Source of the DNA: Escallonia rubra
Taxonomy: Eukaryota; Streptophyta; Magnoliopsida; Escalloniales; Escalloniaceae
DNA: 64,000 bases
Direction of reading: 5' to 3'
Assembly (NCBI GenBank): GCA_033065855.1
Contig: JAVXUO010000406.1
Coordinates: forward strand, 1 to 64,000
Part shown: piece after piece, positions 52 to 18,840 of the stretch
Numbering within the stretch: the stretch's first letter is position 1
Layout of the letters: the number at the start of each line of letters is the position of its first letter
Notes under the pieces: generated by a model
Databases searched by the model: none
Told to the model about the DNA's origin: nothing
Seen by the model: the letters and a program-made list of their open reading frames with translations, nothing else
Position numbers and translations under genes: made by a program

Positions 52-328
52 AGCTGATCCGTTGAGAGCGTGGGCAAAATAGGAGAAGTTGCAAACGCGA
101 TCTGACCGTCCATCCCGAAAGATGGACGGTCCAGATCGCGTATTTTTCAAAACCTGTCAGTCGTCCGCCATACTGTATGGCGGACGGGTTTTTTTACCAA
201 ATTGCCCCTCCGCCCCTGTCCGCTACACAGTAGCGCGGAGGGCATTAATGTCCTGATGGGAGACAGCAAAAAGTCGTCCGCGATACTGTATGGCGGACGG
301 CCCCTAGTCTGACACCTGTCAGGGCCTG
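48..328. repeat. Left TIR of MULE 1
   Basis: About 281 bp, near-identical to the reverse complement of 11264-11555. It contains a perfect 23-bp palindrome at 163-185 and imperfect ones around 218-240 and 275-297. Homology stops at about 328, in a short run of CTGACAC repeats present only on the left. Confidence 0.9.
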
Positions 329-1059
329 ACACCCCTGCCTGACACTGACCCCTGCCTGACACGAGACAGCAAAAAAGGTATCCGCTATACAGTAAGCGGA
401 ATAATTTCCACTACAGGAGCGCGGACAGGTGCTTCCCGTATACCCCCGAGGTTCCTGATTCTCAGCTCTCTTTCCTGAATTCTCAGCTCATCCCGCAAAA
501 TTCTCAAGCTCTTCCCGCAAAATTTTCTTCTCCTTCGGATTCACCTGGCTTCCATTTTCGGCTCCCCTCAAGCTTCTTCGAGTAAAACTTGCTTCAATCT
601 TCTTCACTCAAGCAAGGTAAGTTTCTCATCTCAGATATTTTCTGGGTGGATTGACTGATAAAGTATATTTTTTATTTTGGGCAAAAAAATATAAATTTCT
701 GATGATGTTCTAGAAATTAATTTGTTAACTTTAAAGAAGTTTATTGTAGTTAATTTTGAATTTTTTTAGGGGCGCTAACTGCGGCACATCTATCCTATTT
801 AAATTCGAATTTTTTGAGATACGTTTGTTGTATTTTGGCATGATGAATTTGTCTAACGCTCTTAGTAATTGTAATTTGTTATGTTCAATAAATCTATAAT
901 TAGCAAAATGGGAGACTTTTGAGATTATGTATATGGTATATTTGTCATCTTAAATAAAATTATTTCGTCACGATAATTTTAAGGTAATATTTTCAGTTGA
1001 AAATGTCATTTGATTGTTCAGCGTAGTCTATATTTCTACATATAGGGAGCTGTTTCACA
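329..1059 (+). promoter_or_regulatory. Upstream and leader region of MULE 1 transposase
   Basis: No ORF. The stretch opens with CTGACAC short repeats and one imperfect palindrome near 380-400. A leader intron is plausible: donor AAG|GTAAGT at 616/617 and acceptor ATAG at 1044-1045, fourteen bases before the ATG. The equivalent gene of MULE 3 shows the same arrangement. Inference only; no transcript data. Confidence 0.5.
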
Positions 1060-3357
1060 ATGTCTGATTTCGTGTCGAGCTCCAACACCCCCGTAGATGC
1101 TAGTGATCCGTATCTAGGACGAACCTTTCAAACATTGGAGGAAGCTGGAGAATGTTTCCGAGCGTATTCATTGAGGGTTGGATTTGGCATTAGAATAAAG
1201 ACTTCAAGAACGAGCAACATAACGAGAAAGATATGCTCTCGTATGTACGAGTGCCATAGGGGCAGAAACCCAGTGCAAAATGAGACACGCGTAGGCAACG
1301 AGGACAGTGATGACGAAATAGGCTATTCGCGCAGAAGACGGGACTTCTTTGCGCGAACGAATTGCCAGGTCAAGATGTTCGTAAGCTATAAACCCAAGCA
1401 AGATCATTGGCTTATTAGCAGCCTGGAACTGGCACACAATCACCCGTTAGTAACCCCTTCTAAGGTGAGTCAGATGCATCAACACAAGAAGATGGGTAAG
1501 GTCGCGAGGAGCCTCATTCACACAATGAGCGATGCGCGTCTAGGACCTACCGACATGATTAATGTTCTTGCTGAACAGGCCGGGGGAATTCAAAATTTAA
1601 ACTTTAACACGACAGACGTTCGTAACGCGGTCCGAACCCATAGACGAGCCGCGTATGACCTCAATGATGCTCAAGCCACAATGAGCCTATTGAAGCGGAT
1701 GCAGATGGAGGACCCGCAGTTTACCTTCGATTATAAACTTGACGACGAGCATCGAGTTAGCACAATTTTTTGGGTCGACGGTCGTTCCAGGCTTGCTTAT
1801 AAGCATTTTGGGGATGTCGTGACTTTCGACACCACATACCGTACCAACAAGTACTCGATGCCGTTTGCCCCTTTCACGGGGGTCAATCATCATTATCACT
1901 CCATCCTGTTCGGGTTCGCCTTGTTACGGGACGAGAGCGAGAGTTCTTTTGAATGGTTGTTTAGGGCGTGGCTGGAAGCCATGAACTTCAAAGCACCCAA
2001 CGTTATCATCACCGATCAAGATTTGGCAATGAAGAAGGCTATTGCCACCGTCTTCCCAGATACTCGACACAACTTGTGCACTTGGCACATAAGCAACAAA
2101 TACCCCGAACGTTTGCATCACGTGTACGCAAAGTTTCCAGACTTTAAACAGGATTTTGACACGTGCGTTAGCAAGTCGTTAACGATTGAGGAATTTGAGG
2201 AGAGGTGGGAAAAGCTTGTTCAGGATTACTCATTGCAAGACAACGGGTGGCTCCAGCACTTGTACGAGCTCAAAGAGCAATGGATTGGCGTTTACACGAG
2301 GAGGCATTTTTCTGCGGGCATGAGAACGACGGGCAGGAGTGAATCTATGAATGCCACTTTCGATAGTTACGTGGGTACAGCTACCAATTTGAAGAGTTTC
2401 GTCACATCCGCACAGAAAGCGGTTGCGTCGTTGTTCGTGAAAGAAAGGGCTGCAGACTTTGCAACCACGTACAAACAGAGGAGAAGGTTGCTTGAGACCC
2501 CGCTGGAGCTGAACGGTGCCAAAGTCTATACGAAGGAGATCTTCTTGCTATACCAAGTAGAGCTGCAGAAATCGGGACGGTACTGTATAAACAAGGTGGC
2601 AGAGAAGTCTACGCGTGAGTACAAGGTTTATTCGCTCGTGAATGACCTCGTTCCTGAGAAGCTGCGCAGAATGTATACGGTGAGCCACGACACATTGACG
2701 GACTCGGTGACATGTGTTTGCAAGAAGTTTGAGTTCCATGGCATCCTGTGTAGACACATTCTGCGCTTTTTCACCCAGAAGAATATCAGGACAATCCCCG
2801 ATAAATACGTCTTGCCACGGTGGACGAAAGGTGCAAACAGGTTGCACGGTACCATTGCTTTTCCGGAGCACCCGTATACTGACTTTGAAGAATCGGAGAC
2901 GTTGCGGTATAATCATCTGGTGACGAGTTTCACCCGTTTGTCCGTAAAGGCTGCTGCTTCAATGGTCGGTTATAAACATCTCCTCGAGGTAGCTCAGCAG
3001 CAAGAGCCCATCATCGACCAGTTGGAAGCAGCCGCTGTCACCAGTGCGATTGACACCGAGCCTACGACGGGGGTATCAGAAGATGACGAGCCGGGGGAGG
3101 AAGACGACAATGATATTTGTTTGTTGGACCCAATTATATCGCAAACGAAAGGCCGCAAGAGATCTACGCGGATGAAAAGCTCTATTGAAACGGCAACTCA
3201 ACCTAAAAAGCTGCGAAGGTGTGCATTGTGCAACAAAATGACCGACCACGACAAGCGGAACCATTACAAGGCACTGGGGATAAGTTCGGGGGGTTTGCAA
3301 GACGGGGAAGAAGGTGACGCCGAAGACGAGGACGAACAAGCTGCAGTGGACCTTTAA
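1060..3357 (+). CDS. FAR1/FHY3-type MULE transposase, intact ORF
   Basis: Single 765-codon ORF. Residues about 28-128 match a FAR1 DNA-binding domain (GECFRAYSLRVGFGIRIKT; Cys65, Cys102 and the HNH at 126-128 are likely zinc ligands). A MULE transposase core follows: VVTFDTTYRTNKY with Asp257, then IITDQDLAM with Asp319; Glu428 in GRSESMN is a candidate third catalytic acid. A SWIM zinc finger lies at about 552-566 (C-x-C ... C-x-H), and a C-terminal CALCNK...H....H knuckle (CX2CX5HX4H) follows an acidic stretch. The ATG is the first in frame and gives the complete N-terminus seen in FAR1-type proteins. The protein should bind the TIRs and catalyse cut-and-paste transposition in the nucleus. 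No stop or frameshift is present, unlike the homologue at 30262-32529, so it may be active. Confidence 0.93.
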   Translation: MSDFVSSSNTPVDASDPYLGRTFQTLEEAGECFRAYSLRVGFGIRIKTSRTSNITRKICSRMYECHRGRNPVQNETRVGNEDSDDEIGYSRRRRDFFARTNCQVKMFVSYKPKQDHWLISSLELAHNHPLVTPSKVSQMHQHKKMGKVARSLIHTMSDARLGPTDMINVLAEQAGGIQNLNFNTTDVRNAVRTHRRAAYDLNDAQATMSLLKRMQMEDPQFTFDYKLDDEHRVSTIFWVDGRSRLAYKHFGDVVTFDTTYRTNKYSMPFAPFTGVNHHYHSILFGFALLRDESESSFEWLFRAWLEAMNFKAPNVIITDQDLAMKKAIATVFPDTRHNLCTWHISNKYPERLHHVYAKFPDFKQDFDTCVSKSLTIEEFEERWEKLVQDYSLQDNGWLQHLYELKEQWIGVYTRRHFSAGMRTTGRSESMNATFDSYVGTATNLKSFVTSAQKAVASLFVKERAADFATTYKQRRRLLETPLELNGAKVYTKEIFLLYQVELQKSGRYCINKVAEKSTREYKVYSLVNDLVPEKLRRMYTVSHDTLTDSVTCVCKKFEFHGILCRHILRFFTQKNIRTIPDKYVLPRWTKGANRLHGTIAFPEHPYTDFEESETLRYNHLVTSFTRLSVKAAASMVGYKHLLEVAQQQEPIIDQLEAAAVTSAIDTEPTTGVSEDDEPGEEDDNDICLLDPIISQTKGRKRSTRMKSSIETATQPKKLRRCALCNKMTDHDKRNHYKALGISSGGLQDGEEGDAEDEDEQAAVDL

Positions 3358-3910
3358 TTTTTTGTACAACGTTATGACATTTGTAATAATTTTCGGAGGG
3401 ATAATTTTTCCTTCGAATGCTGGAAATATTAAAAATTGGAGAGAATGAGAGGCCATCGAATTAAATATAGTCTTTTATTTTTAAGTTATTTTTTTTGTAA
3501 GCCCCGTCCGCTATAAAATATAGCGGACGTCATCGAAGTAAAACTTTTGGCCTGCTTTTTCCTTGGTCTGCTTTTACGTCCGCTATACAATATAGCGGAC
3601 CTCATGAGCAGTAAAACTTTTGGTCTTCATTCACGTCCGCTATACAATATAGCGGATGTCATCGAAGAAAAACTTTTGGTCTTCATTTACGTCCGCTATA
3701 CAATATAGCGGACGTCATCGAAGAAAAACTTTTGGTGTCCGCTATATAAAGTGGTGGATAACTCTATCCTACTATATATATTAATCATATCGCTAAAGGG
3801 AACCTCTCTTTGTCTAGAACATCTACTGCCACTACTCTGTCTCCGGCACCCACATCTCCGGTGGCCCAGAACTCCGGCGTTAAACCGTCCTCCCCTCAAC
3901 GCCGACCTCG
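3358..3910. repeat. Tandem 23-bp palindromes between transposase and B3 gene
   Basis: Four palindromes with arms GTCCGCTATA and TATAGCGGAC lie at 3506-3528, 3578-3600, 3635-3657 and 3691-3713; the last copies form a 57-bp tandem unit ending in the spacer GTCATCGAAGAAAAACTTTT. A decayed fifth copy is at about 3736. The region also contains the transposase 3' flank (3358-3480) and a TATATATTA element near 3772-3780 that may be the TATA box of the B3 gene. Confidence 0.8.
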
Positions 3911-4379
3911 ATGGCTTCTGGATCGGAGACCACCAACGATTTTATTGGCAACTTGCACCTGGCAGGCAAACACTTTTTCAAAGTCATGATGCCGGGGTTT
4001 GAGAATGAACTTGTAGGCCATCCCTATTTCTCTGTATTTTCGTGTTTTAAAGGTTTGATGTTTTGGTTAAAAACTAACGTATTTTTTGTGTTGTGTTTGT
4101 TAGGACATACCGGAAGCCTTGACCAATCAATTTACAACAATTCATGACAGTGCAAGATTATATAGCCGCAAGGGGGCATGGCAGGTTGAAATCAAGCTGA
4201 AGCCCGGCCGACCCCAAAAAAAGCAATTCGCAGAGGGTTGGAACGTCTTCGTGCGCCAGCATGGCCTCGAACTCGGGGACTTTGTAGTGTTTGAACACCT
4301 TGGGTGGTGGGATTTTCAAGTTGTAATATTTGATCGGAGCACTTGTGAAAAAATTTCTTTCCCCCAATGTGAACCCTAA
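3911..4379 (+). CDS. Transposon-borne B3-domain DNA-binding protein, two exons
   Basis: Exons 3911-4012 and 4104-4379 join in frame across a phase 0 GT-AG intron (donor CTT|GTAGGC, acceptor TTAG|GACATA), giving about 125 aa. Almost the whole protein is one B3 domain: HFFKVMMPGF starts it, DIPEALTNQF begins exon 2, then GAWQVEIKL, FAEGWNVFVRQHGLELGDF, VVFEH and FQVVIFD. B3 domains are plant-specific sequence-specific DNA binders of the nucleus (ABI3/VP1, ARF, RAV, REM groups). Single-domain size and the GDFVVFE pattern are REM-like. It lies in the transposase orientation and between two palindrome clusters, so it may bind the element's own repeats; that is inference. MULEs 2 and 3 lack it. It could be a captured host gene. 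Confidence 0.85.
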
Positions 4380-4450
4380 TTTATTATTAATAAAATTATT
4401 TATGTTGTTGTTGAATCACCTCGAAATTTTTCCTCGCTTAATTGTGCTCA

Positions 4451-4568
4451 ATTGTGTCGTTTGAGATTCCCTCGATATATTGAGATCGTTGATTGTGAAT
4501 CGTACGTTAATTGTGTCGTTTGAGATTCCGTCGGTATATTGAGATCGTTGATTGTGAATCATACGTTC
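4451..4568. repeat. 59-bp tandem duplication downstream of B3 gene
   Basis: Two copies (4451-4509 and 4510-4568) of a unit beginning ATTGTGTCGTTTGAGATTCC differ at a few bases. Partial further copies flank them. No coding potential; the B3 transcript may end here. Confidence 0.8.
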
Positions 4569-4721
4569 TTTATTGTTTATCGATATTGAGGTTGTTGATT
4601 CTGACGCCAAAACAAGTCTTCGGGGCGCCAATTTATTAAAACAGCATTATGCTACAATGCGACTAAAACAAGCCAATTTATTAAAACTGCAGAACGCTAC
4701 AACTTCTAGCTCTACTAAATA

Positions 4722-5101
4722 GCGGACATAAGGGCCTCCGCTTAGGCCGGGGTTCGGGAAGGTCGGAACTAAGTGTCTGGTTCGTGCCAACCATTTTCTG
4801 GTCCAAGTTGCAGACAACGATCTGCTGCACCACTATGACGTAAGCTTCGTACTGTATTGTGCGGGCGTAGAACCACCGACTTTCTCTGCGGAACTGTCCG
4901 CTATACTATATAGCGGACATCTCGTAGGGACAATCAATTGTTCGAGACTTTGCCTCTGCGGGGATGTCCGCTATACTATATAGCGGACCTAGGAGAGAAA
5001 AATGGTTGTTTGCAACTTGGACCAGAACTGGTTGGGCACGGACCAGACACTTAGTTCCGACCTTCCCGAACCCCGGCCTAAGCGGAGGCCCTTATGTCCG
5101 C
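4722..5101. repeat. Long inverted repeat (95-bp arms) enclosing two palindromes
   Basis: 4722-4816 is the reverse complement of about 5006-5101 with only a few mismatches or gaps, all near the loop. The loop holds two perfect 23-bp palindromes at 4896-4918 and 4966-4988. As RNA this would form a long hairpin. The right arm ends 17 bp from the stop codon of the small gene at 5118. Confidence 0.9.
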
Positions 5102-5117
5102 GTCTAGAACTCGATCT

Positions 5118-5549
5118 TCAGGCATCTTCATCTGAAACTGGAGCATCGGAAACATTTCCTTCTTCGAAGCTCATGTCCCAGTATACTTGTGCTTCATTGT
5201 TGTTGCCATCTTCTTGTGCATCACGTGCCATACGACGTAAGTTATGCCTACTTTGACGAACTCGCATTCTATTATTTTCCTCGCGTATTCGATGAAGTGC
5301 CCTTTCAAGCTCCATGTGCGTAATTCGAGGCATGTTGATTGCCTTTTGTCGAGGTATGGGTATATTCATGCTCCGTGAATCAGCTATTAGGACCTCGTGT
5401 TCATTCATCCGATAAGACCATTCTGCACGTAATGTATTCACATAGCTTGATGAGTAACGCAAACTTGGACGCAAAGAATAGTGAAATTCATCTTCGCCGG
5501 CCCAGTAACGACCCATTGCTTCAAAAATATCTCGTGGAGTATATGACAT
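5118..5549 (-). CDS. Novel small protein A, paralogue of the gene at 5946
   Basis: 143-aa ORF with ATG at 5549 and TGA at 5118-5120. I do not recognise a family. It is clearly related to the divergent neighbour at 5946-6380: both share LR.EW.YR..E.E.L..D, then P.R.....M.R, then IR.ENNRM..R..R, and both end in an acidic tail (VSDEDA here, YMSNEE there). The central stretch RITHMELERALHRIREENNR is rich in Arg, Glu and Leu and could be helical or coiled-coil. Two independently diverged copies that keep the same conserved core argue that both are real genes. A TATATATA run near 5622-5635 sits about 75-85 bp upstream. No homologue is seen in MULEs 2 or 3. Confidence 0.7.
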   Translation of the reverse strand: MSYTPRDIFEAMGRYWAGEDEFHYSLRPSLRYSSSYVNTLRAEWSYRMNEHEVLIADSRSMNIPIPRQKAINMPRITHMELERALHRIREENNRMRVRQSRHNLRRMARDAQEDGNNNEAQVYWDMSFEEGNVSDAPVSDEDA

Positions 5550-5945
5550 TTCGAGAGTTGTTATGAAATTGGGAGTATATGTACATCACTCTATGCCCCT
5601 TGCAAAGAGCAATGCATGTACTTATATATATACTTTGAAACGGGACCCCATTTTGAAAGCGCTACAGTGTTAAGTTTATGAGATGTGACCCAACGTTGGC
5701 AATAGACTAGAGACTTGTCTTGTCACCAAAGAGAATTGTCTTGTCAAGAACGACTTGTCAACTTTATGACACGGGCATGCTGTTGTCTCCAACTATTGTC
5801 ATCTTCAATGTCCAGAGACTTGTCTTGTCACACGAGATAGACAGACTATTGTGTAGCTATCACACCAATTATATTGTGTATGGGTGTGTGGGCTTATTTA
5901 TATATGATAGCCATGCTCATCGCTTTAGAACCAAAACAAAGTTAA
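5550..5945. promoter_or_regulatory. Divergent promoter between small genes A and B
   Basis: 396 bp between two divergent ATGs, with a TATA-like run for each: 5622-5635 for the minus-strand gene and TTATTTATATA at about 5894-5905 for the plus-strand gene. A motif of the form GACTTGTCTTGTCA recurs between 5710 and 5835. Suggests shared control of the pair. Confidence 0.5.
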
Positions 5946-6380
5946 ATGGCAGGAGTTCCTGGGAGTTCTAGTCTGCGGGGACGTGAGACTGTGTGGTTGT
6001 TGTGTGAAAGGAACGACGACTACAAAGAAGTGAAGTACACGGATCCCAGAGAGTATTATTGCGGTTTACGGAGAGAATGGGCATATCGAGTTAAGGAATC
6101 AGAAGCGCTACACCAAGATCTCACCACGCTGAGTGCACCTGTGCCGCAACGTCGTTCACTTACTATGTCGCGGCGTAATGTTAAGCAGTGTAAGAAAGCT
6201 GTGCGCCAAATTCGTATGGAGAATAACCGGATGTTGCTGCGTAGAAAACGATTTTATATGCTTCAACTTGCGGAAGAAATGGCCGAGGCTAGTGGGAGGC
6301 AGCTCACATCAAACGAGAGAAACAATATTTTAACCAATGATCAGTACTTATCTGATGAGTATATGTCAAATGAAGAGTGA
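5946..6380 (+). CDS. Novel small protein B, paralogue of the gene at 5118
   Basis: 144-aa ORF with ATG at 5946 and TGA at 6378-6380. No family recognised. Conserved with the divergent gene A: LRREWAYRVKESEAL matches LRAEWSYRMNEHEVL, and VRQIRMENNRMLLRR matches LHRIREENNRMRVRQ; the central P.R....M.R element and acidic C-terminus also match. The basic, Arg-rich middle (about residues 60-100) followed by an acidic tail would suit a nucleic-acid or chromatin contact, but this is inference. N-terminal thirds of A and B have diverged. The 435-bp gene has no intron. Its location between the transposase/B3 block and the PMD-C48 gene marks it as MULE cargo or an accessory gene. Confidence 0.72.
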   Translation: MAGVPGSSSLRGRETVWLLCERNDDYKEVKYTDPREYYCGLRREWAYRVKESEALHQDLTTLSAPVPQRRSLTMSRRNVKQCKKAVRQIRMENNRMLLRRKRFYMLQLAEEMAEASGRQLTSNERNNILTNDQYLSDEYMSNEE

Positions 6381-6529
6381 TATATATATCTCTTTCTACT
6401 GCATGCTAGGATTTCATTCCAACCGGCACTCATCCACATGTCATTCTAATTGGTGTATCCCGTCTTTTGAAGCATGTAAAATGTTGGGAATATATGTTTC
6501 TAACTACATCCGTCGTACTATAATGGGGT

Positions 6530-6745
6530 AACTAGCATGCCTAAGGTGCAATGAGAAAAAAAAAGTGACATAAAAAATTACAACATTTTTCGCAAGCTAT
6601 AAATTTGGCCTCCCAGTGTGCGCGAATAGGCCCTTCGTAGGAAAACCAAAAAAATAAATTGTCTCGTTTATCGCCGAAATTCATAGAAATTGGCTATATA
6701 GCGTGCCTAAGGTGCAATGAGCAAAAAAAAAGTGACCAAAAAAAT
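6530..6745. repeat. Relic of the ~167-bp MULE repeat, inverted
   Basis: Read on the minus strand this stretch has the landmarks of the arrays in MULE 2 (13010-13930) and MULE 3 (32670-34500): a T-run then GCTCATTGCACC, TTAGGCACGCTA, TTTCGGCGA, AACGAGAC, GGTTTTCCTA and GAAGGGCCTATTCG. Just over one copy is left. Relative to the PMD-C48 gene it is inverted compared with the other two elements. Confidence 0.75.
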
Positions 6746-6756
6746 TACATATCTAT

Positions 6757-7290
6757 GTCCGCGATACTATATCGCGGACAGCCAAGCAGAATGTGGCCTC
6801 CCCAACACTTAGTTTTTTTTGGTCCTATCTACGTCCGCGATACTATATCGCGGACAGCCAAGCAGAATGTGGCCTCCCCAACACTTAGTTTTTTTTTGGG
6901 TCCTATCTACGTCCGCGATACTATATCGCGGACAGCCAAGCAGAATGTGGCCTCCCCAACACTTAGTTTTTTTTTTGGGTCCTATCTACGTCCGCGATAC
7001 TATATCGCGGACAGCCAAGCAGAATGTGGCCTCCCCAACACTTAGTTTTTTTTTGGTCCTATCTACGTCCGCGATACTATATCGCGGACAGCCAAGCAGA
7101 ATGTGGCCTCCCCAACACTTAGTTTTTTTTGGTCCTATCTACGTCCGCGATACTATATCGCGGACAGCCAAGCAGAATGTGGCCTCCCCAACACTTAGTT
7201 TTTTTTGGTCCTATCTACGTCCGCGATACTATATCGCGGACAGCCAAGCAGAATGTGGCCTCCATAACATTTTTTTTGGGGTCCTATCTA
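6757..7290. repeat. Tandem array of 76-79 bp units, each with a perfect palindrome
   Basis: Seven palindromes with arms GTCCGCGATA and TATCGCGGAC start at 6757, 6833, 6911, 6990, 7067, 7143 and 7219. The spacer (AGCCAAGCAGAATGTGGCCT and a T-run of variable length) is nearly identical between copies. ORFs across it are artefacts of the repeat. It lies 3' of both small gene B and the PMD-C48 gene. Confidence 0.95.
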
Positions 7291-7502
7291 GTCTCCCCTG
7301 CTGAAAGAAATCACACAGAACAAATAAAACACTCAGCTGAACAACACAACGATATCACTGAATCAAATCAATCGCATTCAACAACGATCACATCTCAGTC
7401 AACACAGATGAAATCGTCAATCGCATTCAAACGATAAGATTCAAGAAGTTTAAGGACAAATAGCCAAGTCAATATAGCGGACGTTATTATACGCAAACAT
7501 TG
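7291..7502. other. Spacer between palindrome array and PMD-C48 gene
   Basis: About 210 bp with repeated CAATCGCATTCAA (7368-7380 and 7418-7429) and a half palindrome TATAGCGGAC near 7474. Probably 3' flank of the PMD-C48 gene. No gene. Confidence 0.5.
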
Positions 7503-10500
7503 TCAATTACAGGGATTTACAATATATCTAATAGGTCTAGGCCGGCCATTGATAATTTGCCAAGCCATCCTATACCTAAAGCAGTCTATGCAGTCTTGGG
7601 TCCAGACGGTCTTCTTGAGGCTCTCCGACCGACAGATGTAATCCATGTACATGCAGAGGTAGACGCCGCAGTCCGAGGTATTAAGTTGCTTGGGCCTAGT
7701 CCTCTTCAATCGGAAAACAACCTCCCTATCGCCCGCTGCCCTCCCTCGGCTCTCTCGAGAACGCTCTCTATTGACCATGGCAGCAAATAGATTCTGCGAG
7801 TAAGAGGATAAGCATTAAACATTAAACATAGCAAACATAATACGATTAATCAGTTCTACATTATGCAAGTTACAATAAGAAGTAAACAGGCTCTTACCAT
7901 TGGATTCAACATCCCTAAGCCTACGTACATCTCAATCACACCAATCGCGTCCGTATCATCGTAGAGACTGTCAAGGACTGATACGGTATTCGTTACCGGT
8001 TCATAGCAAATCAAGAACCAGTGGGCATTAATTATAGCAGGGAGTAGAAACACATCCGCCACACTTGCGCGCTCTGGACTCGGCCGACCAAGATATGCGA
8101 GTAGGTTAGCGGACGGTCTCCACTTCATCTCGGCCTTCGCCTTTCTCGCCTGCTTCCTCGCCTTGTCCCACTCGTTAAAGTCTTGTACTAGCATATTGTG
8201 AAAGTAAGCGTCGAGAATAAAAATGCGCGGACCGTAGTTAGGCTGCTCCCGACTCCTTTGCCGCAGAATTTGCACGTAGTGCGAGATGACGAAGTTGTCT
8301 AACCACATCCCCGGCGCCAGCGTGGACAGTTCTTTCCACGAGACACTGTAATCCAAGCCCTGCGGGTTTTTCACGGCATACGACTCTTCGTCTGGGGGGG
8401 CCCGCTAAAATAACGGTGATGGATTAGGTGGTGTTTATGCGGCTTCAGGGGCCTGGCTGGATGCCCTTTCGGATATTGCCCTCGGGGGTCGACCGGTTGC
8501 TCTTGCCCTCCGCCGGGGGGCAAGAGCAACGGAAGAAATTGGCCTCCAACCAACGGATCGGCCGGCTGATAGTCGCCTTCGGGGGCCCCGGCCGGCTGAT
8601 AATCGCCTTCGGGGGCCCCTGCCGGCTGATATTGCTCGCCGGCCATTTCTTCCTCCCGCTGATATTGCCCTTCGGTGCCGCCAATCGGTCCCGCCCACGG
8701 GACAATGGGCAGTGCCTCGTTAAAACCGTATTGCCACTCTTGCGTGACTTGACTCTGAGAGAGGGGTTGGGGTTCCGGGAACAAATCGAAGGTCGGGCCG
8801 CTGTAATCGGCCCACGACGCTTGAGCATGTCCCATCCCCGGTACAGATGGACCACCAACTCCCTGGCTCACCCCTGAAGCTTGCCCGGAGGGATCAACGT
8901 TATACGGGCTGGCGCCCGTATAACCCATTCCCGGGCTGTCGACCGAAGACTGTCCCGATGCTTGCCGCACAAAATTCCCGCAGCCTATAGCCAGTGCAGC
9001 AGCCTGTTGGCGAAGATCCTCGCCCATTGCGCTCATCAGATCCTTCCGCTCACTCAACTTCTGGAAGAATGCAAGCGAGGCATTAACCTACATCCAAAGA
9101 GATAACAAATAAGTAACTTTAATCAGTTCTGATATATTGAAGACAAGTTGGGCAACTTACGAGATTGTATGCCATCTGCTCGTCGATCTGACCCCTAGGC
9201 GCATACCTCGCCCCGCGTTCAAAGTTGACTGGGGCTACTCTCCTCCGCGTGATGCGGGAGTACCACTCATCATACTCCGCGATGCTGATAACGGGGTCCG
9301 GCTCCGAGACGATGGCCGCCAGTGTGTCCTGCCAAGAAGTCCATAGCTCTAGTTCGGCCGCGCACAATTCTTGCGCATTGGCCTTGCCAAACCGCCCGAC
9401 ATCCGGTGGGTCCCTGTTAACCCTCATATCTGGGGCACCGGCGGGCAAACCCTGCTCCAACTCAAAATGGCGCATTGCTCGGTCTGGCAGCTGCCACTCT
9501 GCGACCTCGAAGTGGATGAGGGGTGTGCGCTGCAACCCGGATAGCGTGAAGACGAACGACTCTTCAACCCGTCGCGCCAAAACTATGTACGGTGCCCAAC
9601 GCAATTGGCCCGGAGATAGGCGGTCGAACTCCCCTCGATAGAACGTGATGTTGTGATGGGGATCGACTCTCCTGCGGTAGTGGCTATTATTCCGGCTGTA
9701 CTCCCAAGCACGCAACCGAGGCCACACTCTATCGGTTCCATCCCTACGCGTCGGTGAACCGGGAGCAAGGTGTTCATAAGACCACACCTGAAAAAATGGA
9801 CAAATTATATTTATATCGTCGATTCAACAAAAGCGAAAACAAAAAAAAAATTACGAAGACATGATTTATATGATATACCTGCAATAGCGAGAGACATGCA
9901 CATATGGCTTTGGAGTCGGGCCTCGTTGCCTTGTGCAATGCTCGGTACAGATACGAAAGAACCGCTGCACCCCATGCATAATCTCCAACCTCAGCCAGGT
10001 TACTCAACAACGGTAAATATTTCACGCTGGCCGTGTTCTTCGACGTCGTTGGGAATAAAATTGCCCCCATCACCCACCAGAGGAAGGCTTTTGTGTAAAG
10101 CACAAGCTCATGGCCCGTATAGTTTTCCGGCAATACCCCGTACGTATCTACCAACCATTTCAACTTTATACCACCACTGCTAAATTTATCCTGGGGTATC
10201 GAATGGAGGAAGTCCCTAGCGGTTCTCGTCTTCGTTGCTTCTGACGGAGGAGCAATTACCGGCAGCCCCGTCACCGGCAACCCTAAGATGAACCCTACAT
10301 CTTCTAGGGTAATTGCCAGCTCTCCGAGCGGGAAGTGAAACGTATTCGTTTCACTTCTCCACCTCTCAACAAGGGCACCTATCAAGGCCCGGTCAAGCTG
10401 TTGAAATATCTGCCCATGCGTGAAAATCCCAAACCCAATTCCACGCAGTATCCTCTTCTGGGCGGTGTTCAGTTTCCACGATACTATATCGCGAGATACT

Positions 10501-10699
10501 TCTACGGTGTTGACAAGTTCTCTTTCCTACGAATTAATAAATACAATTTAAGCGCTCTCAACGGTATATACAACGTTCGTAAGAATAAGAAAAGTTTATA
10601 AATAATGTATCTTACTCCACCATCCCATATGAGCGTACTGATATGGTTAGCTTGGTCGTATAACACGGATGGGTCTTCAGGTCCAGGGTTAAATTCCAT
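7503..10699 (-). CDS. PMD-C48 (Ulp1-like) cysteine protease fusion, five exons, one frameshift
   Basis: Exons (minus): 10616-10699, 9879-10526, 9161-9787, 7898-9087, 7503-7793; every intron is GT-AG and phase 0. About 946 aa. The N-terminus MEFNPGPEDPSVLYD opens a plant mobile domain (ALVERWRSETNTFHF, LEDVGFILGLPV, later VWSYEHL and PDRAMRHF). A Pro/Gln/Gly-rich linker (repeats of YQPAGAPEGD) follows, then a C48 peptidase: His in AHWFLIC, Asp in VLDSLY, Gln and Cys in KQLNTSDCGVYLC, so the catalytic set is complete. The exon 7898-9087 reads out of frame at a run of seven C (minus strand, 8394-8400); one base more would join the frames. This is a fresh frameshift or an assembly error. C48 enzymes cleave SUMO-type conjugates; PMD proteins such as MAIN/MAIL1 act in silencing and genome stability. 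Confidence 0.85.
8390..8402 (-). other. Homopolymer frameshift in the PMD-C48 gene
   Basis: On the minus strand the frame from the PMD/linker side runs through seven C and stops soon after at CCG TGA, while the protease frame picks up as DEESYAVKNPQGLDYSV immediately after the run. The exon length (1190) is one short of a multiple of three. No splice sites flank the shift. Confidence 0.8.
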
Positions 10700-11263
10700 T
10701 TTTTGCAACTGAAATTATGGAAAAACCTTCTCAGTTTGGATTTTACGTTTTGGATTTTGATAATAAGAAGCGAAACTACGACGCTAGCACATGCATAATA
10801 CATATAACGAGTTAGCACATGAATGATACGTACAATGTTAGCATATGTACTCATATGTATAAATATATATACTATTACGGAATCGGATTTTGCAAACGCT
10901 TGCACAAGAACAAGAACATACATATATAAAACGCAATATTCATCTTAACCGAATATTACAGACAAAAAATCGTAGATTTTGTGAACTTACGTGATCGATT
11001 TAGGGTATATTGAACACCGGAATGTCGCCGATATGCTTGCCAACGCCGGTGGTAAAGACTGGATATTGCGTAGAAAGTGTATATTTTGTGAGTGGAGAAG
11101 AGTGGTGCCGTAGTTACTACCGTAGTTACTGCCGTTTGCAAGTATACTGAACGTCCGCAATACAGTACCGCGGATGGCGATACGTCCGCTAAACTATATA
11201 GCGGACACTGTTGACGTGACAGAAAGGACCTGATAACCGTCATTGCCAAAAAAACTGACGGGA
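10700..11263 (-). promoter_or_regulatory. Promoter and leader of the MULE 1 PMD-C48 gene
   Basis: On the minus strand a leader intron is plausible: donor GTAAGTTCAC at about 10985-10990 and acceptor TTTCAG just before 10710. Two palindromes lie at 11153-11175 (imperfect) and 11184-11206 (one mismatch), between the leader and the right TIR. No other gene. Confidence 0.5.
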
Positions 11264-11551
11264 CAGGCCCTGACAGGTGTCAGACTAGGGGCCGTCCGCG
11301 ATACAGTATCGCGGACGACTTTTTGCTGTCTCCCATCAGGACATTAATGCCCTCCGCGCTACTGTGTAGCGGACAGGCGCGGAGGGGCAATTTGGTAAAA
11401 AAACCCGTCCGCCATACTGTATGGCGGACGTCTGACAGGTTTTGAAAAAGACGCGATCTGGACCGTCCATGGACCGTCCATCTTTCGGGATGGACGGTCA
11501 GATCGCGTTTGCAACTTCTCCTATTTTGCCCACGCTCTCAACGGATCAGCT

Positions 11552-11555
<4 letters not shown>
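11264..11555. repeat. Right TIR of MULE 1
   Basis: 292 bp, inverted copy of 48-328, differing mainly by an extra 11-bp GGACCGTCCAT duplication near 11461-11482 and single bases. Perfect palindromes at 11294-11316 (arms GTCCGCGATAC / GTATCGCGGAC) and 11407-11429 (GTCCGCCATAC / GTATGGCGGAC). Confidence 0.92.
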
Positions 11556-11615
<60 letters not shown>

Positions 11616-11722: not shown

Positions 11723-11726
11723 TATA

Positions 11727-11770
<44 letters not shown>

Positions 11771-11793
11771 TACATATATACACACACACACAC

Positions 11794-11826
<33 letters not shown>
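11556..11826. repeat. Compound (TA)n/(TG)n/(CA)n microsatellite between MULE 1 and MULE 2
   Basis: About 270 bp of alternating purine-pyrimidine DNA with TA, TG and CA blocks, including inverted CA/TG runs near 11780-11806. It abuts the ends of both MULEs. Repeated I-Y ORFs here are meaningless. Confidence 0.95.
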
Positions 11827-12780
11827 GGGCCGATCCCTGTCTACCGGTGGGAAAATAAGGTTTTCTCCACCGAACCACTGCTAAGAGCAGCGGTTGGGAG
11901 CGATTTAGAATAAAACCAACCGCAACAAAGTGTTGCGGTTGGAATTATTTTCCAAAACCGCAATTGTTGACCACCAAAGTTCAATTGTTGACCACCAAAG
12001 TACAAAGTCCACCAAAGCCGCAATTGTTGACCACAAAATACCAAAGTCCAACCGCAACTCTTTGTTGCGGTTGGCACCAATTCGCCTAAGCCAACCGCAT
12101 CTCTTGCGTTCCCCCCCCCCTCTCCCCACACGTGGTCCCCCCTTTATAAAAAATAGCTAGACATTTTTTTTTGTCAAAGTACGAAACAGAGACCCTAGTT
12201 ATTTTTAAAAGATCTATATCAGGGAAAAATTTCAGTTTTTTCCAAAGAGTGCAAAGGGGTTAACTGATACGGGGATCCTTGTAACTTTGCAGTGTAATTT
12301 AAAATATCAAGCTAGCGCGATTTCGCGCGAAACTTTTATGAGAACCCTAGGATGCTGGGAAGTTCTATTCCCCAGGAATTCGGGCCATTCCGAAGTCGTT
12401 AGCTATTTTTTTGGCCGAATGGCCTTTTAAGCACTCGATCTGAACACCAGTTCGGGATTTTTCGGCGAAAAGTCCGTACAATACTTTTTAGATAAAAAAT
12501 GAATTCAGGAAACCTAAAATGGCGTTTCAAAGAACTTTTGAGATTTTCTGATGCCATGGGGCATTTTGGTAATTTGCCACCCCAAGAGGGGTATTTTGGT
12601 AATTTTACGGTGTCAAGTTTTTCAGAGGACTTTTCAGTCCAGAAATGTAAGTAAAACACCTGAAAGGTTGTTTTGAAGCTGGTTTGGGGCGTTAGGGTGA
12701 CAATGAACCCCGAGGACATTTCGGTAATTTGCCGCCCATCGGGGGTATTTTGGTAACTTAATTAGACAGTTTTTTCACGA
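11827..12780. repeat. Left arm of MULE 2 with AACCGC palindromes
   Basis: Palindromes with CCAACCGC/GCGGTTGG arms: 11872-11898 (one mismatch), 11917-11942 (inner AACA-AAG-TGTT) and 12048-12074 (inner AAC/GTT). CAATTGTTGACCACCAAAGT is repeated between 11960 and 12030. A CACGTG box is at about 12128. From 12160 on it carries one subterminal unit (GACCCTAGTTA, GCTAGCGCGATTTCGCGCGA, CCGAACTGGTGTTC on the minus strand) shared with the right arm and with MULE 3. Confidence 0.85.
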
Positions 12781-12839
12781 ATTTATAAAAAATAGCTAGA
12801 ATTAGATTTTTCCAAAGTGCAAAAAAGAGACCCTAGTTA

Positions 12840-13004: not shown

Positions 13005-13935
13005 AACCCCGTATTCGCACACACTTTAGCGCCCAATTCATAGCTTGCGAAAAATTACGTAATTTTTTTTGTCACTTTTTTTTTGCTCATTGCACCTCAG
13101 GCACGCTAGTTAGCCCATTTGTAAGAATTTCGACGAAAAACGAGACACATTATTTTTTGGGTTTTCCTATGAAGGGCCTATTCGGGCACACTTTAGGGCC
13201 CAATTCATAGCTTCAGAGAAAAAAGTTGTAATTTTTTTGTCACCTTTTTTTCACTCATTGCACCTCAGGCACGCTAGTTAGCCCATTCTTATGTATTTCG
13301 GCGAAAAAGGAGCCACGTTATTTTTTGGGTTTTCCTATGAAGGGCCTATTCGGGCACACTTTAGGGCCCAATTCATAGTTTGCGAAAAATTAGGTAATTG
13401 TTTTTGTCACTTTTTTTCGCTCATTGCACCTCAGGCATGCTAGTTAGCCCATTTGTAAGAATTTCGGCGAAAAACGAGACACATTATTTTTTGGGTTTTT
13501 CTATTAAAGGCCTATTTGGGCACACTTTATGGCCCAATTTATAGCTTGCGAAAAAAGTTTTAATTTTTTTTGTCACTTTATTTTCTCTCATTGCACCTCA
13601 GGCACGCTAGTTAGCCCATTTGTAAGAATTTCGGCGAAAAACGAGACACATTATTTTTTGGATTTTCCTATGAATGGCCTATTCGGGCACACTTTAGGGC
13701 CCAATTCATAGCTTGCGAAAAAAGTTGTAATTTTATTTGTCACTTTTTTTTTGCTCATTGCACCTCAGGCACGCTAGTTAGCCCATTCTTATGTATTTCG
13801 GCGAAAAAGGAGCCACGTTATTTTTTGGGTTTTCATATGAAGGGCCTATTTGCGCACACTTTAGTGCCAAATTCAATGCTTGCGAAAAATTATGTACATT
13901 TTTTTTTCAATGTTCTTTGCTCATTGCACTTTAGC
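13005..13935. repeat. ~167-bp tandem repeat array of MULE 2
   Basis: About five and a half copies; the landmark CACACTTTAGGGCCCAATTC recurs near 13022, 13188, 13354, 13521, 13688 and 13856. Each copy also has GCTCATTGCACC, GGCACGCTAGTTAGCCCAT and TTTCGGCGAAAAA. The array ends against the stop codon of the PMD-C48 pseudogene. Confidence 0.93.
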
Positions 13936-13939
13936 TACG

Positions 13940-16318
13940 CTAGTTAGGATAATGGTAATGAAGGCGTCTAGCTTCATTCTTTTTCAGCTCCCAGGCTATC
14001 CTATACCTCAACGTCAAGGCATCTTTCCTAGTCCACGACGTATATTTGAGCACCTCCGAGCGAGCAATGTAGTCCATGTACTTGAGGACGTAAATCCCGC
14101 AATCGTGACTGTTATATTGTTTTGGTCGGTCTTGTATCATCGCGACCGTCCAAGGCTCTACCGTCGAATTCCTGGTGATGGTCTCACTCGAATAATCTTG
14201 GCACGCTAGCGAGAGGATAGTAGTTTGCATCCAACAATAAAAAAGGTCATCAAGCCTATATAACAAGAAGAATATACTATGAGCCAAGGTCAAAAAATAA
14301 AAAACCTAACCACTGCAGTGATGTACTCGCTGTACATCTGTGCCAGCTTCCGTCTAGGTCTGTCCTCCCTTAGGTTATCATACATCTGTGCCAGCTTCCG
14401 TCTAGGTCCCACACCTTATTCTGGGGCTGAGAGTCGTACGCGTCAGGAGGCAAGCGAATAGACGGATCCCAGAATTCCCTCTGGGGCTGAGAGTCGTACG
14501 CGTCAGGAGGCAAGCGACTAGACAGCTCCCACACCACACTCTGGGGCAAAGAGTCGTACGCGTCATGAGGCAAGCGACTAGACGGATCCCAGAATTCCCT
14601 CTGGGGCTGAGAGTCGTACGCGTCAGGAGGCAAGCGACTAAACGGCTCCCCTTGGTAACCCCGGTACGCAAGACTAAAGTTGTGAACTTCAGTCTTGTAC
14701 CTCTCAATGGACCTCTTGAGATCGTCAGGAGCCTGCGCGACAAACCAGTCAAACCCCTCCAGCGGCTTGAACACGTCAGTGCCCTAGTCAACCTAAAAAA
14801 CATGCATAGAAAATATGGCTAATCATTTCAGGCATGATCGATAAGGTGCACAAATAAAAATTGAAACAACACTAGCATGACTTACAATGCTCAATGCCCA
14901 GAACTGGTCATAGACCTCACGTGGCGCATACGATGTTTTCCTCACCTGGGAAGGGCGATGTCACCTTGAGAAACCATTGTAAGTAGTCCTCAGTACTGAT
15001 GCCGTCGTGCTTCAGCGATACAAGGCTATCATACCTTTCCTGCCATGTATTCCACTGTTGCACCTCGTCCTTCAACAAATTCAAGGCATCAGCCACCTCG
15101 AAGTTCGGCCCTCGACCACTCCTGTATGGCCGCATGTCTACAGCGGGTTTTGGTATCCCTTGTAGACAGCCAGCTTGCCTCATAGCTCGATCGGGCATCT
15201 AAAACTCACATTCTTCGAAGTGAATAAGTGGCACCCGAACCAAACCTGCCAGCACGTACGACACCGGAAGTTGCCAGCACCACTCATCCAACCGATGCAT
15301 CATCTTGCCATATAGCTGCCACGTCACCTGGGATGCATCCAATATCTCTAGTTCCCCCCGATTGAACTTTAGATGGTGGTGAGGCTCTACCCGTTTCCTC
15401 CTTCGGTTGGTCGTAGGCCCCCAGGCCCACACCCTAGGCCACGTCTTATCGGAATCTACCCACAGTTGTGGACGACCTGTGGGTAGCCTCTCGTAAGACC
15501 AAACCTGTGAATGCAAACATTATATGTAATTAGTAATTAATCACGAATATATTGACACGTCAAAACAAGAATATAAATGCTCATACCTGTAATAGAGTCA
15601 GGCAGGCGGCAATGGACTTGGCACCGTTTCTCGTAGCCTTATGCAGTGCTCGATATAGGTGCGCAAGGATAGTTGAACCCCACGAATACGAGTATACCTC
15701 CTCAAGATCCTCCAAGAACACCATATACTTCGGATGCACCGTGTTTTTCGAATGCGTCGGAAGTAATATAACTCCAATAATATACAGAAGGAATGCCTTC
15801 GTATACGTCACGAAATCATGAGGAGTGTATTCATCCGATAGCAATTCGTACTGCTCTCTCAGCCATTTAAGTTTGATGCCGTTTGTTGTAAGAGCTTCCC
15901 TCGGAATTCCCGGAAAATACTGCCTAGCCATATTCGCTATGGATGCAGACGTTTTGCTCAAAGTAATGGGTCTGCCGTGACATGGGATTCCAAGTATAAA
16001 TCCGACGTCCTCTAATGTAATAGTCATTTCACCAAACCGGAAGTGAAATGAGTTTGTCTCGCTCCTCCATCGTTCAACTAGAGCGGATATGAGGCAATCG
16101 TCGTGTCGAGACCAAATCCCGCAATCGGTGAACATAGATAAATTTTGCCGGTGTAATAGTTGTATTTGTTCCTCGTTTAGTACCCACTCTTCGAGGTGAC
16201 TTGTGCTTTGAATTGTTTCCAAAACACCCCTATCGACACCGTCAAATACGTGCCTCGCGACGTGGTCATCGTCATCGTATAGGACTGATGTATCATGAGG
16301 TCCGGGGTTGAAATCCAT
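13940..16318 (-). pseudogene. PMD-C48 protease pseudogene of MULE 2
   Basis: Homologous to 34559-37411. Exons (minus) by comparison: 15587-16318, 14886-15504, 14311-14792, about 13940-14224. ATG (MDFNPGPHDTSVLYD) and the first PMD exon are intact; the MULE 1 intron after FDG is absent. Damage: TAG at 15199-15201 after HFEECEF; a 14-bp net deletion and frameshift near 14950-14965; TAG at 14784-14786 in the second codons of the next exon; loss of about 475 bp that held the catalytic His and Asp; splice acceptor AG changed to AA at 14225. The Cys exon is open (QYNSHDCGIYVLKYMDYIAR). The linker holds four 60-bp coding repeats (RLPPDAYDSQPQ) and a duplicated 45-bp segment at 14335-14405. Confidence 0.88.
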
Positions 16319-17439
16319 ATCTCTAAGAACAAAATATAATCGCAAACCAACTTAGCGTCCATAATATTTACATTCCAAAACTGTAACTGAATCTTTAACC
16401 TAGCTTACCAACACATTAGCAATAGTCATTATCTCATTATTTCAATGTATTAACACCATTCCTCACTTCCCATCACTCCGAACGCTTAATTACGCGCGTT
16501 CACTAAAATTTAGCGCCAACGTGGCAATTTACCAATATACCCCCTGATGGCGGCTACACCACCAACACCTCAAAACCGCTTTAAAACTATTTTTTAAATG
16601 TATTACATCAATTATATACCAAATATTTCCTCAGAAGATTTTAAAAGGGATGAGTTAACAAAAATTGCCCCCAACTTATGCAAAACACTCCCTAGCAGCC
16701 ATCGCCCCAACAAACATCTCAGAACAACTTTAAAATAACTTTCCGGGTGTCCAACACCCCTTCCTGAACTAAAATTCATTCGGGAAATTTTACAAGCTGG
16801 TTCAGTTACCAAAATACCCCCGATGGGCGGTAAATTACCGAAATGCCCCCGGGGGTTCATTGTCACCCTAACGCCCCAAATCAGCTTCAAAACAACCTTT
16901 CAGGTGTTTTACTTACATTTCTGGACTGAAAAGTCCTCTGAAAAACTTGACACCGTAAAATTACCAAAATACCCCTCTCGGGGTGGCAAATTACCAAAAT
17001 GTCCCCTGGCATAAAAAAATCTCAAAAGTGCTTTGAAACGCTATTTTAGGTTTCCTGAATTCATTCTTGATCTAAAAAGTATTGTACGGACTTTTCGCCG
17101 AAAAATCCCGAACCGGTGTCCGGATCGAGTGCTTAAAAGGCCGTTCGGCCAAAAAAATAGCTAACGACTTCGGAATGGCCCGAATTCCTGGGGAATGGAA
17201 CTTCCCAGCATCCTAGGGTTCTCATAAAAGTTTCGCGCGAAATCGCGCTAGCTTGATATTTTAAATTACACTGCAAAGTTACAAGGTTCCCCGTATCAGT
17301 TAGCCCCTTTTCAGTCTTTCGAAATATTTGAAACTTTTCCCTGATATAGATATTTTAAAAATAACTAGGGTCTCTTTTTTTCACTTTGAAAAAATCTAAT
17401 TCTAGCTATTTTTTTATAAATTCATGAAAAAACTGTCTA
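16319..17439. repeat. Right interior of MULE 2: upstream of PMD-C48 and first subterminal unit
   Basis: 16319-16560 matches 37412-37640 of MULE 3 (leader acceptor TTCTTAG on the minus strand, AACCAACTTAGCGTCCATAA). 16560-17439 is a degenerate subterminal repeat unit with runs such as TTACCAAAATACCCC and the GCGCGAAATCGCGCTAGC core at about 17236-17253. No gene. Confidence 0.75.
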
Positions 17440-18377
17440 ATTAAGTTACCAAAATACCCCCGATGGGCGGCAAATTACCGAAATGCCCCCGGGGGTTCAT
17501 TGTCACCCTAACGCCCCAAACCAGCCTCAAAACAACCTTTCAGGTGTTTTACTTACATTTCTGGACTGAAAAGTCTGAAAAACTAACATCGTAAAATTAC
17601 CAAAATACCCCTCTCGGGGTGTCAAATTACCAAAATGCCCCCTGGCATCAGAAAATCTCAAAAGTGCTTTGAAACGCTATTTTAGGTTTCCTGAATTCAT
17701 TCTTGATCTAAAAAGTATTGTACGGACTTTTCGCCGAAAAATCCCGAACCGGTGTCCGGATCGAGTGCTTAAAAGGCCGTTCGGCCAAAAAAATAGCTAA
17801 CGACTTCGGAATGGCCCAAATTCCTGGGGAATGGAACTTCCCAGCATCCTAGGGTTCTCATAAAAGTTTCGCGCGAAATCGCGTTAGCTTGATATTTTAA
17901 ATTACACTGTAAAGTTACAAGGATCCCCGTATCAATTATCCCCTTTGCACTCTTTGGAAAAATCTGAATTTTTTCCCTGATATAGATATTTTAAAAATAA
18001 CTAGGGTCTCTGTTTCGTACTTTGACAAAATCTAGCTCTAGCTATTTTTTATAAATGTGGGGGGGGGGGGGGGACCACGTGTGGGGAGGGGGCACCACGG
18101 GGGGGGGGGGGGGGAACCGCAACTAAGAGATGCTGTGTGGGCGAATTGGTGCCAACCGCAACAAAGAGTTGCGGTTGGACTTTGGTATTTTGTGGTCAAC
18201 AATTGCGGCTTTGGTGGACTTTGTACTTTGGTGGTCAACAATTGGACTTTGGTGGTCAACAATTGCGGTTTTGGAAAATAATTCCAACCGCAACACTTTG
18301 TTGCGGTTGGTTTTATTCTAAATCACTCCCAACCGCTGCTAAGAGCAGCGGTTCGGTGGAGATAGACAGAGATCGGC

Positions 18378-18380
<3 letters not shown>
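17440..18380. repeat. Right arm of MULE 2
   Basis: Second, nearly identical copy of the ~620-bp subterminal unit (compare 16810 onward), then a G-run at 18057-18116 with a CACGTG box near 18076, then the inverted copy of the left tip. Palindromes: 18156-18178, 18286-18310 and a perfect one with arms AACCGCTGCT/AGCAGCGGTT at about 18333-18356. Confidence 0.85.

Positions 18381-18408
<28 letters not shown>
18381..18408. repeat. (TA)n at right end of MULE 2
   Basis: 28 bp of TA repeat, the likely target of MULE 2 insertion. Confidence 0.9.
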
Positions 18409-18412
<4 letters not shown>

Positions 18413-18465
18413 GCCAGATCGCGTTTGCAAGATCTCCTATTTTGCTACCGCTCTCAACGGATCAG

Positions 18466-18537
<72 letters not shown>

Positions 18538-18594
18538 CTGATCCGTTGAGAGCGGTAGCAAAATAGGAGATCTTGCAAACGCGATCTGGCTGTC
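18409..18594. repeat. Perfect 62-bp inverted MULE ends around a TA tract
   Basis: 18409-18470 and 18533-18594 are exact reverse complements. Both are MULE 1-type terminal sequence (GATCCGTTGAGAGCGGTAGC in one orientation) and their outer tips face each other across 62 bp of pure TA (18471-18532). Ordinary insertion puts element DNA inward of its tips; here two tips point at one another. Confidence 0.92.
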
Positions 18595-18840
18595 CATCCT
18601 GAAAGATGGACGGCCCAGATCGCGCCTTTTTCGAATACTGTCAGTCGTCCGCGACACTATGTCGCGGACGGACTTTTTTACCTTTTTGCCCCTCCGCCCG
18701 TCTGCTACACTGTATCGCGGACGGTTCAAATCTTTTTTTTACGTTTTTTTTAAGTACGTCCGCTACATAATGTAGCGGACTATTTTTTGATAAAAATACC
18801 CTCCTGTTCCATCCGCTACATTATGTAGCGGACGAGTAGA
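18533..18840. mobile_element. Left-end fragment of a MULE 1-type element
   Basis: Starts GAGAGCTGATCCGTTGAGAG and follows the MULE 1 TIR (AGATGGACGG, CAGATCGCG, CCCCTCCGCCC) with divergence. It carries perfect palindromes at 18647-18669 and 18758-18780 and a near-perfect one at 18811-18833. MULE similarity fades after about 18840 into CT-rich DNA. No transposase follows. Confidence 0.75.

Follow-up and report, generated by a model that had tools for sequence, protein, structure and literature searches.

A 23-bp palindrome with rigid spacing in FAR1-type Mutator-like transposons of Escallonia rubra, probably a dyad of half-sites for an element-encoded protein

In Arabidopsis, Mutator-like elements (MULEs) of the VANDAL21 type carry the short VANC21 motif, mainly in their noncoding parts, where it evolves via tandem repeats and forms arrays that vary among copies and related families (PMC5735166). 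A similar arrangement is found in element A, a MULE at the start of a 64-kb stretch of Escallonia rubra DNA (assembly GCA_033065855.1, contig JAVXUO010000406.1, positions 1 to 64,000; hereafter the window), in which 23-bp palindromic sites with the arms GTCCGC and GCGGAC recur. The VANC21 motif is the nine-base YAGTATTAY in one orientation, whereas the element A site is a 23-bp dyad with rigid spacing, and the word palindrome is absent from the main text of PMC5735166. Element A shares the VANC-type trait of motif arrays in noncoding regions, as none of the 19 exact sites lies inside the eight open reading frames (ORFs) taken for its genes and the sites are thus intergenic; three mechanical ORFs (6659-7437) with no Pfam match span its 76-bp tandem array and the seven sites therein. 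As for a VANC gene, Pfam named only B3, Ulp1, plant mobile domain (PMD)-type and transposase families in element A, no profile search aimed at VANC having been made. Judged from its sequence, the site is probably a dyad of two half-sites, bound as double-stranded DNA by an element-encoded protein acting as a dimer; the most likely binder is the transposase, through its FAR1 domain.

Element A also resembles MULEs of the MuTAnT/Jittery type, with which it shares a Jittery-like transposase and insertion into TA microsatellites (PMC4486113). The terminal inverted repeats (TIRs) differ: the search mask for MuTAnT is GGGGTTTGCTAGAACA where element A has GGGAGCTGATCCG, and the MuTAnT mask does not fit the element A TIR, GGGAGCTGATCCGTTGAG. 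AutoMuTAnT contains one ORF, while element A adds B3, Ulp1 and PMD genes and two small ORFs, and internal 23-bp dyads are not among the features described for MuTAnT in the portion of that report consulted (PMC4486113). In a table of MULE groups, an antisense PMD gene is listed for groups other than the Jittery/FAR1 type (PMC6446971). Among the papers listed by a literature search with 10-mers from the sites, none dealt with plant transposons to judge by title and abstract start, and by the same marks no literature on MULEs with palindromic internal sites was recognised. Another comparison is with the subterminal repeats of CACTA elements, namely, many short repeats, often in both orientations, that are bound by the element protein TNPA; these are confined to the ends and consist of a single 12-bp unit, whereas the sites of element A are also internal.

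The window contains 19 copies of GTCCGC-N11-GCGGAC. The genome to which it belongs (566,129,122 bases in 3,222 contigs) contains 19,579, against 2 for a backward control. When any spacer from 0 to 30 is allowed, 19,932 matches are obtained, and the 353 with a spacer other than 11 exceed the backward control for all spacers (185). CCGC-N11-GCGG is present 36 times in the window, and any other spacer from 5 to 19 gives at most 2. The 23-bp sites are real and far beyond chance. Numbering their positions 1 to 23, and writing matched pairs with a hyphen and mismatched pairs with a point, the exact sites of the window are G-C (9), T-A (7) or C-G (2) at 7/17 and T-A (16) or C-G (2) at 9/15, but pair 11/13 is unmatched in 14 of the 19. 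A single 76-bp unit, repeated in tandem, accounts for seven of the nine G-C sites, and degenerate sites with broken arms stand at 218, 380, 3635, 3737, 11153, 11352, 18700 and 18811. A first-pass annotation of this DNA had listed sites of this kind and taken them to change sequence while keeping symmetry; its coordinates and pair states are correct, but it had omitted two misfits with exact arms, 276 (G.G at 7/17) and 11184 (A.A at 9/15).

The same annotation had the inner pairs changing together as a rule, and held that a genome-wide set with mismatched arms as common as compensated ones would refute this. Such a set is what was found for the two letters that the genome-wide counts cover, G at 7/17 and T at 9/15. 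G at position 7 or its mirror is present in 5,305 (2,789 + 2,516) of 39,158 arms; 631 sites are G-C, against 359 expected under independence, and 4,043 have G in a single arm. T at position 9 or its mirror is present in 16,922 arms (8,534 + 8,388), with 5,325 T-A sites (3,656 expected) and 6,272 sites with T in a single arm. One-arm changes therefore outnumber compensated ones at both pairs. In the first 50 sites, taken in contig order, matched pairs number 35 at 7/17 (34.3 expected under independence), 40 at 9/15 (28.7), 43 at 8/16 (43.4) and 29 at 11/13 (24.1), and pair 10/14 is A-T in all 50 sites without a swap; A10 is present in all 100 arms and A8 in 93 of them. At the outermost pair, 1/23, the first 100 rows listed hold 14 A-T sites and 72 one-arm sites, and age and CpG decay could explain any A-T excess there.

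The matched changes claimed for the window are largely a small-sample effect. In a within-locus shuffle, the arms were dealt anew among the sites of one locus, with each inner 11-mer counted once per element. Within the window, matching at 7/17 is seen in 9 of 10 distinct sites against 3.4 expected, a value reached in 5 of 4000 shuffles, so that it is indeed unusual; outside the window (64 sites with at most two arm mismatches, from 16 loci within L035 to L052), the count at 7/17 is 38 of 64 against 39.4 and is not unusual. Other window-free sets give 15 against 17.6, 30 against 32.6 and 50 against 46.8 at 7/17, and 22 against 17.9, 35 against 30.5 and 57 against 52.4 at 9/15. The initial within-locus test had given 48 against 39.6 at 7/17, but most of that excess was due to tandem copies in the window itself. 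A set of 51 representatives (less than 80% alike), to which the window and loci selected for G at 7 contribute, has 33 matched at 7/17 against 28.0 (42 of 2000 shuffles). Loci L053 to L068 were picked mainly for G at position 7 and are hence biased, and the flanked samples come from few contigs; taken alone, these loci show fewer matches than dealt arms (51 against 75.2 at 7/17, 50 against 79.1 at 9/15) because their arrays are mismatched. Coupling outside the window is moderate at 9/15 and at most weak at 7/17. Much of the arm-arm association can be put down to shared descent and to a half-site preference common to the family, though not clearly all of it.

The earlier interpretation fares better in its other part, constraint on a symmetric site, which is supported by the rigid spacing and by arms conserved above the subterminal flanks. 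In an alignment of left ends (30 rows, namely, the window plus 29 of the 40 further near-full-length copies; counts confined to this end), minority letters make up 6 of 720 in the arms of sites 163 and 276, 22 of 660 in their interiors and 227 of 5,307 in subterminal flanks. Between nine array consensuses, 1 of 108 arm cells differs, compared with 10 of 99 in the interior and 14 of 108 and 20 of 135 in the flanks. Of the arm changes in L035 to L068, 81 of 99 are C to T or G to A and look like the mark of cytosine deamination. The symmetry ends with the site: in the 51 representatives the pairs outside it, from 0/24 to -10/34, match at chance level (0/24 in 24 against 22.4 expected). Only three of 304 sites (locus overlaps retained) are extended by at least 7 pairs, namely, units 695 and 843 of L038 (688-724 and 836-872; 7 extra pairs) and site 366 of L040 (354-400; 12 extra pairs). 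These appear as if one flank had been copied to the other side, and arm copying can thus happen, although rarely.

Element A is assigned to the MULE superfamily by its transposase domain and by TIRs of about 100 bp at both ends, and its transposase has the layout of the Jittery/FAR1 type, with FAR1 N-terminal (PF03101, E 2.1e-13), MULE (PF10551, E 9.8e-33) and SWIM C-terminal (PF04434, E 3.6e-5); a comparison by sequence with solved structures gave 0 matches up to E 1. The features of the element, and of a second one of the same type, are as follows.

About 50 to 11556, forward strand: element A, a MULE transposon between TA microsatellites, with the TIR GGGAGCTGATCCGTTGAGAGCG... at both ends, identified by eye and by alignment.
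50 to 150, forward strand: left TIR, about 100 bp, inner limit approximate.
163 to 298: left-end sites 163 (C-G) and 276 (G.G mismatch), with degenerate site 218 in between.
1060 to 3357, forward strand: transposase, 765 aa, with FAR1, MULE and SWIM domains (Pfam).
3506 to 3759: array upstream of the B3 gene, with exact sites 3506, 3578 and 3691 (T-A) and degenerate sites 3635 and 3737.
3911 to 4378, forward strand: B3-domain gene of two exons, 3911-4012 and 4104-4376, separated by one inferred intron (Pfam PF02362 at E 1.9e-9 when the exons are joined; tblastn).
4722 to 5101: foldback with 100-nt arms, 92% complementary, around sites 4896 and 4966.
5118 to 5549, reverse strand: small protein, 143 aa, related to that at 5946-6380 (35% over 78 aa, E 7e-16), no Pfam match.
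5946 to 6380, forward strand: small protein, 144 aa, no Pfam match.
6750 to 7290: 76-bp tandem array with seven identical G-C sites, with homologous arrays in other copies.
7856 to 8374, reverse strand: fragment of an Ulp1-type peptidase (C48) (Pfam).
9119 to 10385, reverse strand: PMD gene in two ORFs (Pfam).
11184 to 11429: right-end sites 11184, 11294 (G-C) and 11407 (C-G) and degenerate site 11352, with 11153 just before.
11456 to 11556, reverse strand: right TIR, inner limit approximate.
18533 to 18833, forward strand: beginning of another A-type element, with sites 18647 and 18758 and degenerate sites 18700 and 18811.

The flanks of element A are TA repeats, which mask any target-site duplication of 8-11 bp, and most of the 30 aligned copies start beside TA repeats (exceptions include L025 and L028). 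An inverted repeat with 91-nt arms at 18409-18594 consists of two A-type element ends facing each other across a TA microsatellite. The first 421 bases of element A have at least 41 near-full-length matches genome-wide, window included (40 of 2,665 first-look candidates scored). The family is recent, since the scored transposase copies (59 of 4,761 first-look candidates) are 98-100% identical and 51 of the 59 have no internal stop.

Homologues of the 76-bp array form a natural series of inner variants. By array, the inner pairs read T-A in L038 and also in the first unit of L053, L058 and L059, three loci in which most units are T.C. They read T.C with A.A in L054, G-C both in the window and in L055, and G-C with A.A in L056 and L057. 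In the copies in C26 and C25 (T.C), C63 (T.C with A.A), C103 (G-C) and C400 (G-C with A.A), the arrays lie 3.4-3.8 kb past transposases whose proteins are 99-100% identical, with an internal stop only in C25; the transposase of C63, beside the doubly mismatched array, differs from that of the window at 6 of 2,295 bases. T-A, T.C and G-C are thus one change apart each, and the mismatched states took over entire arrays in recent copies. That mismatches are merely decay in dead copies is untenable for the 76-78 bp array, whose mismatched versions stand near 99-100% identical and mostly stop-free transposases. At the left end, site 163 is C-G in all 30 aligned copies, and site 276 is C-G in 22, G.G in 4, G-C in 2 and C.A in 2. 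The array of L038 (1-1250) has another feature: units of about 75 bp alternate between GTCCGC..GCGGAC and ATCCGC..GCGGAT sites, the asymmetric centre being mostly inverted between the two site types while the spacers hold one orientation.

Two further elements in the window, B and B-prime, carry a different palindrome with the same geometry, AACCGC-N11-GCGGTT (the family B site), in nine exact copies:

11918 to 12072: sites 11918 and 12050, left part of element B.
18154 to 18353: sites 18154, 18286 and 18331, right end of element B.
26590 to 26887: sites 26590, 26675, 26750 and 26865, left end of B-prime.
30262 to 32529, forward strand: B-prime transposase, two ORFs split by a stop, with a FAR1 N part and a MULE/SWIM part.

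Spacers of 7-10 or 12-15 between AACCGC and GCGGTT are absent from the window. Genome-wide, AACCGC-N11-GCGGTT is present 3,980 times against 7 for the control, and of the 4,355 matches with any spacer, the 375 with other spacers are at control level (415). The A and B-prime transposases are 53% identical over 604 residues (MULE/SWIM part) and 37% in the N-terminal region, and a FAR1 domain is recognised in B-prime (Pfam E 5.1e-12 on 30262-30672). A and B-prime have diverged, yet CCGC-N11-GCGG is common to both, and the two outer bases differ symmetrically. Queried with the B3 and small proteins of element A, tblastn gave no second match in the window outside A (one B-prime copy looked at). In 34 distinct family B sequences, matching is 15 against 15.9 expected at 10/14 and 2 against 14.4 at 11/13; in 50 sites, 11/13 is matched in 2 against 19.8. 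Tandem units of 322 bp are present in B-prime (27676-28953 and 38234-38863), with similar phrases seen by eye in B (about 12150-12760 and 17000-18050), and 167-bp tandem arrays in B and B-prime (13012-13947 and 32755-34449); by eye, element A has a degenerate inverted copy of the 167-bp array directly ahead of its 76-bp array (about 6530-6750). A separate family of palindromes with varying spacers, TTTAGCGACGGA...TCCGTCGCTAAA and TTTTAGTGACGGA...TCCGTCACTAAAA, is found at 43131-43423 and 48222-48254, and resembles the subterminal repeats of CACTA elements.

In the preferred reading, that of a dyad, the 23-bp site would comprise two identical half-sites (about GTCCGC-N-A-Y-A) a fixed distance apart, which a dimer of an element-encoded DNA-binding protein would read on double-stranded DNA. 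Each half-site would be kept for its own letters (GTCCGC, A8 and A10) more than for pairing across the arms, while positions 7, 9 and 11 would be tolerant and often unlike between arms. New states would spread by copying of tandem units and by transposition of whole elements, and the sister element with its diverged transposase would use AACCGC half-sites with the spacing unchanged. The transposase FAR1 domain is the favoured binder because B-prime has a FAR1 domain too, whereas the B3 and small proteins match nothing else in the window. FHY3 and FAR1, themselves descendants of such transposases, offer a comparison. FHY3/FAR1 proteins act on DNA as homo- or heterodimers, so that their site is read by a dimerising FAR1 protein, as is proposed for the dyad, but it is a single CACGCGC and not a spaced dyad (PMC6000157). 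Because the sites stand between genes along the element, beyond its ends, they would probably also serve transcription or anti-silencing besides transposition; a role in expression or anti-silencing is plausible. What the sequences show directly is the sites, their spacing, the conserved arms, the one-arm changes and the matching geometry of the sister family, and from these the dimer, its identity and its role are inferred.

Several observations weigh against the dyad reading. Transposases usually need only sites near the ends, whereas many of the sites here are internal. A residual arm-arm association, at 9/15 in family A and at 8/16 and 7/17 in family B, is not predicted by independence of half-sites: the genome-wide matched excess is 1.76-fold at 7/17 and 1.46-fold at 9/15 (phi 0.12 and 0.35); outside the window, 9/15 is matched in 46 of 64 against 39.6 within loci (reached in 81 of 4000 shuffles); in the representatives it is matched in 35 against 24.8 (2 of 2000); and in the distinct family B sequences 8/16 is matched in 24 of 34 against 15.1 and 7/17 in 18 of 34 against 12.7. 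Arm constancy at the left end is only partly special, because the TIR (51 minority letters of 3,028) and the degenerate sites 218 and 380 (15 of 689 and 9 of 660) are also rather constant there. Within arrays, arms (29 of 972) vary about as much as the interior (30 of 891), with 99 of 972 and 159 of 1,215 in the flanks. Single sites are dispensable, because one of the 30 aligned copies has an exact site 218 and none an exact site 380. Finally, the known FHY3/FAR1 motif is not GTCCGC (PMC6000157).

Of the other explanations, selection for a DNA cruciform or RNA hairpin, in which paired positions change together, is highly improbable. It would account for the 7/17 matching in the window and for the matched excess both genome-wide (631 against 359, 5,325 against 3,656) and in the representatives (35 against 24.8, 33 against 28.0), but compensated pairs are rarer than mismatches, 10/14 never swaps in 50 sites although a hairpin allows swaps, the loop length is rigid, and family B nearly always lacks a match at 11/13. 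Moreover, arrays of 11 and 18 anchored units (L053 and L054) have a mismatched consensus in copies with 99-100% identical transposases. As the main account, compensatory change in a hairpin or cruciform is rejected on the genome-wide one-arm excess (G at 7/17, T at 9/15) and the invariant 10/14 (50 sites). Only slightly less improbable is template switching inside the palindrome, by which one arm would be renewed from the other and matched changes created, as the first-pass annotation had also suggested. The extended palindromes of L038 and L040 fit such a process, yet they are two unrelated cases, the flanking pairs otherwise match at chance, and one-arm changes persist over whole arrays; arm renewal by copying is retained only as a rare contributor, as pairing ends outside 1/23.

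That the sites are functionless passengers of transposition and tandem duplication, with inherited symmetry, is unlikely too. The homogenised arrays, the deamination-like arm changes and the decay of end sites 218 and 380 as the family spread speak for passengers; on the other hand, arm minority letters are about one fifth of those of subterminal flanks and about half of those of the TIR in the same copies, CCGC-N11-GCGG is common to two elements with 53% identical transposases, and the symmetry stops at position 1/23. A further possibility, which is entertained with some doubt, is that the reader of the dyad is not the transposase but B3, a small protein or a host factor, for which the site would be an anti-silencing target like those of VANC. 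The sites are intergenic and form tandem arrays that differ between copies, like VANC21 motifs, although the latter are nine bases long and arrayed in one orientation (PMC5735166). One array lies about 150-400 bases upstream of the B3 start, but B-prime retains the geometry although tblastn with B3 and the small proteins gives no match to it (in the window, with its one B-prime copy).

The findings carry a caution, namely, that matched changes among repeated sites of one window can stem from few founder sites. The claim of compensatory evolution is replaced by a testable binding model with a natural variant series (T-A, T.C, T.C with A.A, G-C, and G-C with A.A arrays) on nearly one transposase. 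More speculatively, related plant MULEs may encode a dimeric binder (transposase FAR1 domain, or B3) that keeps the dyad spacing of 11 but evolves in the half-site it recognises. In that case the approximately 20,000 and 4,000 exact targets in one genome would give each family its own address for anti-silencing or expression, in a palindromic analogue of VANC. With two families that share one geometry and differ in their half-sites, the specificity of FAR1-type domains could be mapped.

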